From Desulfurococcaceae archaeon (GTDB taxonomy: Archaea; Thermoproteota; Thermoprotei_A; Sulfolobales; Desulfurococcaceae), in assembly GCA_020833245.1 (NCBI GenBank), contig JAJHQQ010000007.1, positions 1 through 33,447 of the forward strand: a DNA stretch of 33,447 nucleotides, in the 5' to 3' direction. A program made the position numbers and the translations under genes. Numbering within the stretch: position 1 is the first letter of the stretch; each line of letters opens with the position of its first letter. Under the pieces are notes generated by a model. The model ran no database searches, was not told where the DNA came from, and saw only the letters and a program-made list of their open reading frames with translations. Shown here piece after piece: positions 9,686-21,249 of the stretch.

Positions 9686-10732
9686 TTGAAGGGGAGACTC
9701 AATAAGGGGGTGTCGATAAGAGCACAGGGTGATGTGCTTTCTCTGTGGAAACCTCTAAGTGAGATATTAGGGAGTTATAATTCTAAGGCAACTATTACAT
9801 TAAATCTCCACAATAGGAGAGCTAGGAGGGTCTCTCACAGTGTTCTAGAAGTCCTAGTTGAAACTACGAGTACACATGTAGACTGGAAGCTTAAACTTAA
9901 CGGTGTAAATATAACACGTGAGTTTAAGCCTCCTTACACATTAGAGCTACCTGATCATAACAAGTATCTCTGTAAATTCGTCTATGATATCACAGAGTTA
10001 CTAAATACAGATGAGGCTACTAGTAGAGAGTGGGTTAATGTGGCAATTAGACACGAGGGGGGAAACCCTCTAAGTCTTAAAGGTATATTACTCAATGCTA
10101 TATACGAAGACTACGAGGCTACATCCACATATAGTCACTTTACAGGGCTTCTCCTACTAGAAAGGGGTGACGAGTACTCACACAGTATAGATCAGCTCTC
10201 GGGAGCCGACGCGCACGCTAAGTTAATAATGTACACTCCTAGAGCGAGTAGAGTACTCATATCATCTGGAAGCTGGTCAGAACTCGTTACTCTATTACAA
10301 GGTCAAGTAGAAGAGCGCGTATTTACAGTGAGCAATTCCACTAGTTTTATCAAAGTCTCACCTCAAGTAAGCGAAAACCAGCAAGGCTACTTAGTTCTCT
10401 CTAGCTTTACTGTTTATAGTACTAACTTGAAGACTCCCCACCTAGACCTAGAGAGCATTGAGGCATCTAGACAGGGATCGGAAGTCAGAGTTAAAGTGAG
10501 AATAGTTAACACCGGCGAGTCTAAACCAGATAGAGTAATTATTAGTGTATTTGACAGAGGTACTCTACTCGGAATGTACAGGTATGATGGCTCAAACTAC
10601 GAGCCGGGTAGAATAGTTGAAGAAGTACTCTCACTCAAAGCCTCTCCACAAACAGCTGAGTTAACACTGCGAGTAGCGTGGTCTAAGTTAACGAAGACCA
10701 TGTTTACTGATCGAAAGATAATTCTGAGCTAA
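9686..10732 (+). CDS. Hypothetical protein with CARDB-like C-terminal segment
   Basis: 348-aa ORF; VRVKVRIVNTGESKPDRVIISVFDRGTLLGMYRYDG resembles CARDB/Ig-like repeats. Confidence 0.6.
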   Translation: MKGRLNKGVSIRAQGDVLSLWKPLSEILGSYNSKATITLNLHNRRARRVSHSVLEVLVETTSTHVDWKLKLNGVNITREFKPPYTLELPDHNKYLCKFVYDITELLNTDEATSREWVNVAIRHEGGNPLSLKGILLNAIYEDYEATSTYSHFTGLLLLERGDEYSHSIDQLSGADAHAKLIMYTPRASRVLISSGSWSELVTLLQGQVEERVFTVSNSTSFIKVSPQVSENQQGYLVLSSFTVYSTNLKTPHLDLESIEASRQGSEVRVKVRIVNTGESKPDRVIISVFDRGTLLGMYRYDGSNYEPGRIVEEVLSLKASPQTAELTLRVAWSKLTKTMFTDRKIILS

Positions 10733-10735
10733 GTA

Positions 10736-11563
10736 TTAGACGTATTTAAGTACTAGTTTTCTCCTCTTAGCGTACTCCTCTACGAGCTCTCTGTGTTCAC
10801 GCCTAGTGCTCTTCTTCTCCACGATGATCTGCGTGGGAGCAACCGCTGATCTGGAGGTCATCATGTCTAGTATTTCAAAGTCCAGGTACGTCAGCGCGTA
10901 CTTGGGTAATATATGTCCAAAGCACACACTCTCACTTAATGCGAGATCAGTGAACTTTCTAGGGTAGTGTCCACCGCCAATCCCCGCCGAGACTACGCAC
11001 TCGGGTAGAGTGGGGTACTCTTCCAGGAATTCAAGTAAAGTATCGCCGATGACCACGTGGTTAACTGGATCGCTCCACTCGGTATTGCTACTTCCTATCT
11101 CTATGAAAACCAGTGGTTTACTGAGACTAGTAGGGCCGTGGTGAGTAGCCTCGTAGCTAACCTCATACTCTGATCGACCAAGCCTCGTAGCAGAGCTCTT
11201 GAGGCCTCTCAGTAATCTAAACGCCACAGTGGGGTGGGATATGCCAAGTTCTCTTGGGCGACCACCATATAGGGCTTCCCCTGAGAAATTGCCTGTGGCG
11301 TGAACAGTGTAGCTTTTAACACCGGCTTCGCTGGAGTGTCTCGATATAATAATATAGAACTCTACATTAACGGGCATAGTATCATCTAGGAAATCGAAGT
11401 GTAATACGTCCTCGCTGAAACCTGCGAGAACAGCGTTTTTCGCTTCATAGCACTCAACAGAGTGTTTGCACGCTGAGCTCCTGTCTAGTTTAATTCTACT
11501 TGCAATGTAATTTACTACGCCACTTCCAGCTGGGTCCATTGTGCTATACGCGAGCCCAATCAT
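10736..11563 (-). CDS. dtdA: D-aminoacyl-tRNA deacylase (DTD2/GEK1 type); start likely ATG at 11563 (longest ORF begins at 11593)
   Basis: MIGLAYSTMDPAGSGVVNYI, THHGPTSLSKPLVFIEIGSSNTEWSD, AGIGGGHYPRKFTDLALSESVCFGHILPKYAL. Confidence 0.93.
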   Translation of the reverse strand: MIGLAYSTMDPAGSGVVNYIASRIKLDRSSACKHSVECYEAKNAVLAGFSEDVLHFDFLDDTMPVNVEFYIIISRHSSEAGVKSYTVHATGNFSGEALYGGRPRELGISHPTVAFRLLRGLKSSATRLGRSEYEVSYEATHHGPTSLSKPLVFIEIGSSNTEWSDPVNHVVIGDTLLEFLEEYPTLPECVVSAGIGGGHYPRKFTDLALSESVCFGHILPKYALTYLDFEILDMMTSRSAVAPTQIIVEKKSTRREHRELVEEYAKRRKLVLKYV

Positions 11564-11668
11564 GGTGCTCTCCAGGCGACCTATAAAACTCAATACTCAG
11601 TATAGAAGTGATTACTACTTTAGTTAAAGAGCTCTCTTCACTATGCTTTTAACTCGGGATATTGAGAT

Positions 11669-18677: not shown

Positions 18678-19520
18678 TTGTCTTCACCCTCAGCTAGACG
18701 TGTCGAGCTAGGTGAGGGCTTACAGTACCACCTGATGATCAAGAGGGGGGATGTAAGCCGCTACGTACTCCTACCAGGAGACCCCGAGAGAGTCCCCGTT
18801 ATAGCGAAGTACTGGGATAAGGCATGGCATGTTGCTACGCACAGGGAGTTTGTGACTTATGGTGGATACTACAAGGGGGTCTTTATATCAGCGACTAGTA
18901 CAGGTATCGGCGCGCCGTCTACGGCTATAGCTATAGAGGAGCTTGCTAGGTGTGGTGCTGACACGTTTATAAGAGTCGGCACTACGGGCGCGCTGAGAAG
19001 AGAGATTAAGCTGGGGGACATAGTGATCTCTACTGGTGCTGTGAGGCTAGAGGGAACTAGTAGACACTACGCGATACCAGAGTACCCGGCAGTAGCGAGC
19101 TTCGAGGTCGTACTCGCACTAATAGAGGCCGCTGAGTCCCTCGGCGTGAACTACCACGTTGGGTTAACAGCTAGTAGTGACAGTTTCTATGTTGGGCAGG
19201 AGAGACCTGGTTTCAGGGACTACTTACCTCCATTTCAGAGAGGCCTAGTTGACTACTTGAAAAGCATGAACGTGTTAAATTTCGAAATGGAAGCGTCAGT
19301 TATATTCGTGTTGTCTAGTATCTACGGGCTTAGAGCTGGAGCCGTCTGCGCGGCTATTGCTAATAGAGAGACAGACGAGTTTAAGCCGGGTGTTGGAGTA
19401 GAAGACGCTATTAGAGTAGCTAATGAGGCCGTTAGGATTCTCAGTGAGTGGGATAGTGAAAAAGAGAAGAGGAGTAAGAAGTACATTACTGTAGACATAG
19501 TTAAGTCTACTAAGAGGTGA
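18678..19520 (+). CDS. Uridine/purine-nucleoside phosphorylase (NP-I family)
   Basis: LLPGDPERVPVIAKYWD, STGIGAPSTAIAIEELARCGADTFIRVGTTGAL, NFEMEASVIFVLSSIYGLRAGAVCA. Confidence 0.93.
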   Translation: MSSPSARRVELGEGLQYHLMIKRGDVSRYVLLPGDPERVPVIAKYWDKAWHVATHREFVTYGGYYKGVFISATSTGIGAPSTAIAIEELARCGADTFIRVGTTGALRREIKLGDIVISTGAVRLEGTSRHYAIPEYPAVASFEVVLALIEAAESLGVNYHVGLTASSDSFYVGQERPGFRDYLPPFQRGLVDYLKSMNVLNFEMEASVIFVLSSIYGLRAGAVCAAIANRETDEFKPGVGVEDAIRVANEAVRILSEWDSEKEKRSKKYITVDIVKSTKR

Positions 19521-19525
19521 AGTAG

Positions 19526-20470
19526 ATAACGTATATTCACGTAGCAGTCGGCAATTTAAACGTCGATATAGCTGTCTACACGGAGACACTACCTAGAATA
19601 GGAGAGACTATTTTCGCCCGTGACCTCCAATTACGACCCGGGGGTGCTGCGCTAAACTACGCTGTGACAGTTTCACAGTATGGTCACAGAGCGCTACTCG
19701 TAGCTAGGGCCTCAACGCACGAGCTTACTCGCCTCGTTCTCGAGGAGGTAAAGCAGTATGGTGTTGAAACAGAGTACGTAAAGCTAGTTGAGGGCCCACC
19801 TGGAGTAGTCCTAGTAATAGTTGATAAGAGCGGTGAGAGGACGATGATTAAGCACCCAGGTGTAAACGAGGATCTGAGCCCAGGCGACATAGACCGTTGT
19901 GTGCTTAAAGACACTCACGTATTTCACGTAGCGAGCGTTAAACCCAGCGTGGCGTTTAGCCTTTTAGAACTCGCGAGTAGAGAGGGTGTTGTAACTACAC
20001 TAGACCCGGGAGGCTACGTTGAAGAGTGGAGTACTGAGAGGCTTCTCCAGGCACTTAGACACGTGCACACACTGTTTCTCAACGAGCAAAACCTCTGTAC
20101 TCACTTTAAAGCACTAGATGCAAGTAAAATGTTTAAACACGGCTTAAGTATTCTCGTAGTTAAGCGTGGTAGTAAAGGTGCAGTAGTACTTACTCAGGGA
20201 GCGTGTTACAGCGGCTACGCTGAGCCAATTAAGAGGCCGGTAGATACAACTGGCGCTGGAGACGCCTTTGACGCGCTATTTAACGCTAAGTACATCGAGT
20301 CTAAAGACCCAGGGTACTCACTAGTATACGGATTAGCCGCGGGCTCGCTGAAAACGGGGTTTAGAGGTAGCTTCATGCAGTGGAATTCCAAGCTCTTTAA
20401 GTTACAGCTTGAAAAAGTAGTCGTTGAGAGAGTAGACTGTAGTGAGGTTGTATTTTGCGAGGAGAGGTAA
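19526..20470 (+). CDS. PfkB/ribokinase-family sugar or nucleoside kinase; start codon non-canonical or disrupted
   Basis: The frame extends upstream of the listed ORF (19664): ITYIHVAVGNLNVDIAVYTETLPRIGETIFARDLQLRPGGAALNYAV...RPVDTTGAGDAFDALF. GTG 19517-AAG-TAG 19523 precedes it. Confidence 0.85.
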   Translation: MTYIHVAVGNLNVDIAVYTETLPRIGETIFARDLQLRPGGAALNYAVTVSQYGHRALLVARASTHELTRLVLEEVKQYGVETEYVKLVEGPPGVVLVIVDKSGERTMIKHPGVNEDLSPGDIDRCVLKDTHVFHVASVKPSVAFSLLELASREGVVTTLDPGGYVEEWSTERLLQALRHVHTLFLNEQNLCTHFKALDASKMFKHGLSILVVKRGSKGAVVLTQGACYSGYAEPIKRPVDTTGAGDAFDALFNAKYIESKDPGYSLVYGLAAGSLKTGFRGSFMQWNSKLFKLQLEKVVVERVDCSEVVFCEER

Positions 20471-21249
20471 AGCAACTACTAGAACTAGTCCTGTCTAGTC
20501 CACTTGGAGACATAGTAGTAACCGTAGACGGCTTAGTAGTTAAGGCTAGATCTAGAATCACGAGTGTAGAGATCTCGGTGAGTAAGAGAACGCCTATTCG
20601 TGTAGCTGCTCTTTTCTTTTACCTATACGAGCTAACCGGTAGTATTTTCAGCAAGTACTTAGACTGCGCGAAGAGACTTAAAGACCTCAGATCCCACTTT
20701 GACGTGGAAGTACACATCTATATAGTTGACTGCGACGTGGACACTAAATTACTCACTAATCTACTAGAAGCGCTACTAGTTGACTTTAAGTACAATCTAG
20801 AAAAAGCAGTTAACACAGCGGCTCTCCTCGTAATGATTAGTAGAGAAGCCGAAGTAGTAAAGAAGCTGAGAACACCAAGTATAAGTAAAGCAGAGTACTC
20901 ACTGTACCAGGAATCACTGAGTAGAGTGGCGAGTTGTTTAAGACAACTAGAAGTTCAAGTTCAGAGTAGCGATGAATTAAGTAGACTAGTAGACCTGGCT
21001 AGTAAGGCGCAGATTACTGGAGAGCAGAGTAAGCACATAGTGGAGCGGGCTCTCCTAGAAGAGGGGTTTACGGGAGTACACTACACGAGTAGAGTACTAA
21101 GTGAGTGCTCTTCCACAATAGCTAGTACTGTAAGAGACCTGTACAGTAGAGTGCTCTCTCAGAGCGGTGTGCTCGTACTGGCTCCTGGTATTATGAGGGC
21201 TCTACTGAGGGGAGTCGTGCCCAGAGAGGGACTCGTCGAGCTACCCTAG
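20455..21249 (+). CDS. Hypothetical protein
   Basis: 264-aa ORF overlapping the end of the pfkB-like gene by 16 nt; no recognised family. Confidence 0.6.
   Translation: MRGEVKQLLELVLSSPLGDIVVTVDGLVVKARSRITSVEISVSKRTPIRVAALFFYLYELTGSIFSKYLDCAKRLKDLRSHFDVEVHIYIVDCDVDTKLLTNLLEALLVDFKYNLEKAVNTAALLVMISREAEVVKKLRTPSISKAEYSLYQESLSRVASCLRQLEVQVQSSDELSRLVDLASKAQITGEQSKHIVERALLEEGFTGVHYTSRVLSECSSTIASTVRDLYSRVLSQSGVLVLAPGIMRALLRGVVPREGLVELP

Follow-up and report, generated by a model that had tools for sequence, protein, structure and literature searches.

How is a kinase gene translated when its frame opens directly behind a stop codon and offers no canonical start ahead of the conserved N-terminus? 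The gene lies in the window, the whole 33,447-nucleotide stretch of contig JAJHQQ010000007.1 from a Desulfurococcaceae archaeon (genome G000) that was analysed here. It follows a uridine phosphorylase gene (18678-19520, forward strand), and the leader at 19512-19540 reads AAGAGGTGAAGTAGATAACGTATATTCAC. The kinase frame runs GAG-GTG-AAG-TAG-ATA-ACG-TAT-ATT-CAC and is open thereafter until a TAA at 20468-20470. A Shine-Dalgarno (SD) sequence, GAGGTGA, occupies 19514-19520 on the forward strand and contains both the TGA stop of the phosphorylase (19518-19520) and an in-frame GTG (19517-19519). AAG (19520-19522) stands directly ahead of a TAG (19523-19525) that closes any frame opened at this GTG, and the TAG is followed immediately, in frame, by ATA (19526-19528). 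Read from this ATA, the gene (19526-20470, forward strand) encodes a 314 aa PfkB protein, (M)TYIHVAVGNLNVDIAVY...RPGGAALNYAV. From the TAG up to the conserved PfkB N-terminus the kinase frame has no ATG, GTG or TTG; the earliest is the GTG at 19664-19666, which the ORF track chose as the start.

A sequence-only reading of this DNA had reported the same coordinates, the GTG-AAG-TAG-ATA-ACG-TAT frame and the lack of a canonical codon from the TAG to the conserved motif, all of which are borne out by re-reading the window. It had also described the upstream GTG as a start coupled to the phosphorylase stop. The overlap of GTG 19517-19519 with TGA 19518-19520 stands, but the GTG is part of the SD and has no SD of its own upstream.

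A search of 61 related genomes for orthologues of the kinase gave the best match in the closest relative, the MAG 'Desulfurococcaceae archaeon isolate Bin S21' (JAJHQS010000014.1; G002). Its leader reads GAG-GTG-ATC-TAG-ATA-AAA-TAC-ACC-CAT, so that GAGGTGA-NN-TAG-ATA stands at the same place in both species. The two kinases share 67.5% protein identity with dS > 1.2, and about 40% of fourfold sites are identical, from which it follows that the shared arrangement is old. In the other orthologous kinase loci read (28 of 28), ATG, GTG or TTG stands a few codons ahead of the motif x-H-(V/I/L)-x-(V/I)-G-N. Since all of these start canonically just before the same motif, the N-terminus of the kinase in the window is real. 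The codon at the start, which the sequence-only reading had wanted compared among homologues, is accordingly ATA in G002 and ATG, GTG or TTG in the remaining 28 loci. The change to AUA in the kinase gene probably happened once, as only the G000/G002 pair carries AUA there.

Across eight genomes of the genus, the pattern GGTGANNTAGATA has 12 matches. It occupies the start position at the two kinase loci alone, and the remaining matches lie within coding frames in a different register. Counts of GGTGANNNNNATA do not exceed those of a reversed-pattern control, and the raw pattern by itself therefore proves nothing.

The distance between SD and start was determined from 335 filtered orthologous gene pairs in stretches of G000 (611 kb) and G002 (744 kb), the orthologue screen having been filtered to remove antisense shadow frames. 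GGTG is enriched before orthologue-supported starts; counted from its first G, most canonical starts come 9-12 nt downstream. Of the in-frame codons 10 and 11 nt from GGTG, 59-60% are canonical, versus 2-3% within genes. The kinase ATA follows the first G of GGTG by 10 nt in G000 and G002 alike, within the genome mode of 10-11. It thereby combines a strong SD at the spacing of normal starts with conservation between species, the latter in a single pair. The in-frame GTG three codons ahead of the start is explained by the spacing itself, because GGTG at such a distance always creates one. Among ordinary genes led by an SD, 9 of 57 have a stop at codon -1. Ordinary genes share 46% of the bases separating SD from start, and at that identity three matching spacer bases would arise by chance in about 10% of cases; the TAG common to both kinase loci needs no special cause.

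Several other readings of this start can be weighed against the same data. The sequence-only reading had offered translation that begins at GTG 19517 and passes the UAG at codon 3 by readthrough or by recoding it to an amino acid. Both GTG and TAG are kept in G002, and a genus mate (G005, locus L006) has ATG at the position aligned with GTG 19517, as this reading would expect. The GTG is, however, itself a component of the SD, and the conserved ATA and its spacing would be left unexplained. PylS, tied to the pyl genes that had been proposed as a check, does not score above the cut-off in any of the eight genus genomes, whereas one of 14 control genomes does; Methanosarcina, a control, is the kind expected to be positive. 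A tRNA with a CUA anticodon was not found in the 611 kb of G000 and 744 kb of G002, each a part of its genome. With neither pyrrolysine genes nor CUA tRNAs found, and with TAG closing more genes than any other stop (185 of 346 sampled), readthrough is very unlikely. Initiation at one of the nearby non-canonical codons instead of ATA, namely ACG 19529 or ATT 19535, both earlier candidates, is highly improbable. The ACG, at 13 nt from GGTG, is just at the limit of the spacing range, but both codons lie beyond the optimum and neither is conserved, G002 having AAA and ACC in their places.

A protein begun at GTG 19664 or at some other internal codon, leaving the upstream stretch untranslated, would have the first canonical start codon in its favour. 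Such a start, which the sequence-only reading had envisaged as a truncated protein, would drop 46 conserved residues that include GNxNxD and most of GGAALNYA, although ribokinase structures align with the kinase from residue 6-7 onward. Codons 2-46 show 62% amino-acid identity between G000 and G002 and a dN/dS of about 0.19, indicating purifying selection; beyond codon 46, identity is 68% and synonymous sites are saturated. The GTG at 19664 is moreover not kept in G002, where the first GTG is codon 6, and a downstream start is extremely unlikely. Least credible of all is a point mutation, a pseudogene or an assembly error. Both assemblies are drafts and G002 is a MAG, but the same odd layout recurs in two assemblies whose proteins differ at about one third of residues, and the kinase frame is open and under purifying selection.

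We conclude that the kinase is very probably translated from AUA at 19526, behind GAGGTGA, as one case of a lineage-wide tolerance for near-cognate starts. This agrees with another option of the sequence-only reading, non-canonical initiation by means of GAGGTGA, and the conservation in G002 and modal spacing now point to ATA as the codon. We propose that GAGGTGA, which overlaps the phosphorylase stop, would set the 30S subunit with AUA in the P site. Alternatively, a ribosome fresh from termination at TGA 19518-19520 could be positioned on AUA, which would couple kinase translation to that of the uridine phosphorylase. The initiator-type tRNA is the same in G000 and G002 and is ordinary, with A1-U72, G-C pairs in the anticodon stem and a CAU anticodon. 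Given this anticodon, AUA would pair with a third-position mismatch, and the tRNA would begin with methionine despite the C-A pair. GTG-AAG-TAG would be a by-product that resembles a broken start, the TAG merely closing the GTG frame. A pattern for the 16S 3' end had no match in three genomes, from which the rRNA is possibly missing; we infer the anti-SD from the SD enrichment and general knowledge.

The comparison of G000 and G002 reveals other genes in which conserved protein sequence extends upstream of the first canonical codon. Two tests address these. One compares the codons found 10 or 11 nt from an SD near orthologue-supported starts with the equivalent context within genes. CTG occurs 10 times at SD-anchored starts versus 0.62 expected (p=2.6e-6), and ATA 7 times versus 2.3, a weak excess (p=0.02). 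The other test takes 62 genes in which the TGA of GGTGA is the upstream stop in frame, which confines the start to positions after it. The codons at 11 nt are GTG in 17 of these genes, TTG in 8, CTG in 8, ATG in 6, ATC in 2, ATA in 1 and ATT in 1. In 15 of the 62, the first six positions lack a canonical codon, and 12 of these 15 carry CTG (8), ATC (2), ATA (1) or ATT (1) at 11 nt. The p-values are 5.6e-8 for CTG at 11 nt versus codons 5-29 and 0.04 for ATH codons in the 15 non-canonical genes; the tests are somewhat generous because orthologues from two or three genomes were counted separately, the CTG cases being eight different genes and the ATH cases two.

The strong general signal is that of CTG, and enrichment specific to ATA is weak. 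Initiation at near-cognate codons, given a strong SD, looks like a routine event in this lineage, and the tolerance would cover CUG, also AUA, AUC and AUU, and perhaps ACG. On balance, these genome comparisons favour the view that near-cognates (mainly CUG, also AUA, AUC and AUU) are regular starts behind strong SDs in the Desulfurococcaceae lineage, perhaps in between one tenth and one fifth of the genes whose register makes such starts visible, and that current gene finders systematically truncate or miss the proteins concerned.

Several of the near-cognate candidates align with GTG, TTG or ATG starts of orthologues. Families are named here from Pfam where tested, and names ending in '-like' without a Pfam match are read from sequence. 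A prolidase-like M24 gene in G002 (L150:17103-18221) has CTG 11 nt after GGTGA and no ATG, GTG or TTG for its first 244 codons. An aldo/keto reductase has CTG in G002 and TTG in G000, an oxidoreductase-like gene CTG in G002 and GTG in G000, and an amidohydrolase-like gene CTG in G000 and TTG one codon later in G002. CTG stands in both genomes in a resolvase-like gene and a metallophosphatase. A third genome, G001, has TTG in a cytidine deaminase gene that carries CTG in G000, and CTG in a gene for a molybdopterin-binding-domain protein that carries GTG in G002. ATH codons are found in a gene starting (M)PRK (ATC in G000, ATT in G002) and in a ROK sugar kinase gene (ATA in G000, L133:10781; ATC in G002, L209). 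The start position of the latter is GTG, ATG or TTG in G005, G003, G004 and G006. ATC also occurs there in two species of another genus, g5, behind GGTGATCAGTT (L226/L227; G011, G023), and this one ROK kinase case is the basis for a spread of near-cognates beyond the genus.

The window itself contains a second candidate. On the reverse strand, a PhoU/DUF47 gene that the ORF track cut to 181 aa has a candidate ACG at 33387-33385, 12 nt after GGTGA (33399-33395), and GTG is aligned with it in G002. The frame lacks ATG, GTG and TTG for 54 codons, and an ATT 9 nt after GGTGA is an alternative start. On the reverse strand of L189 in G001, a frame at 10121-11618 has GAGGTGA followed at 11 nt by TCG, with TTG aligned in G000; the TCG is either a start with a second-position mismatch or a sequence error.

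Archaeal genes are usually assumed to start at ATG, GTG or TTG, annotation tools build on this assumption, and initiation involves the factors aIF1, aIF1A and aIF2. Escherichia coli infC and pcnB have AUU starts. They resemble the present genes as natural AUH initiation with regulatory consequences but are isolated bacterial regulatory cases. A closer likeness is found in Staphylococcus aureus, where ribosome profiling identified AUA/AUU starts with an extended SD in infC, ccpN, citZ and cvfC1, and AUA/AUU reporters gave about 10-30% of AUG output (PMC13009471). There too, AUA lies behind a strong SD at suitable spacing and the codon is conserved between species. That system is bacterial and comprises four genes supported by ribosome profiling, whereas the archaeal case, read from sequence, would involve more genes and has CUG as the commonest near-cognate. 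Among Thermoproteota, Aeropyrum pernix has 52% TTG starts (Yamazaki 2006, as cited in PMC5911459) and likewise relaxes first-position pairing; the account given there names only ATG, GTG and TTG, to which the present lineage would add CTG and ATA/ATC/ATT. One comparative study allowed annotated AUA/AUU/AUC starts when assembling gene sets, its relevant passages leaving archaeal cases undiscussed (PMC5397173). As for aIF1, it is reported to make complexes on non-AUG mRNA less stable (PMC6237735).

We found no report of archaeal AUA or CUG starts in the open-access full-text literature. The kinase gene is ordinary and its start unusual; AUA with an extended SD is known in bacteria, and the archaeal instance would be new. 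If the proposed reading is true, natural archaeal genes can be initiated at near-cognate codons under a system that owes its fidelity to aIF1, and many annotations in these genomes are truncated. The AUA, AUC and CUG leaders would be ready natural material for testing start-codon fidelity.

The kinase scores 121 bits against Pfam PF00294 (cut-off 25.8) over profile positions 5-291 of 302, which places it in the PfkB family. Its best NCBIfam match is NF053626 (ATP-dependent ribose-1-phosphate kinase), at 125.4 bits and below the equivalog cut-off of 330. The upstream gene scores 342.8 bits against TIGR01718 (uridine phosphorylase), above the equivalog cut-off of 280.3, and almost every relative's locus with sufficient flank has this phosphorylase ahead of the kinase. 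The kinase resembles PfkB ribose-1-phosphate kinases and ribokinases in its domain, its motifs and the adjoining uridine phosphorylase, which yields ribose-1-phosphate, and differs from them in scoring below the NCBIfam equivalog cut-offs. It is probably a ribose-1-phosphate kinase, a putative function that, with a score below the NF053626 cut-off, is suggested only by the operon. A weak AUA start could lower the amount of kinase relative to phosphorylase.

The gene after the kinase (20455-21249 of the window, 264 aa) has no Pfam or NCBIfam match. Among the kinase loci read, it has a clear relative only in G002 (44% identity) and a weak match in G001.
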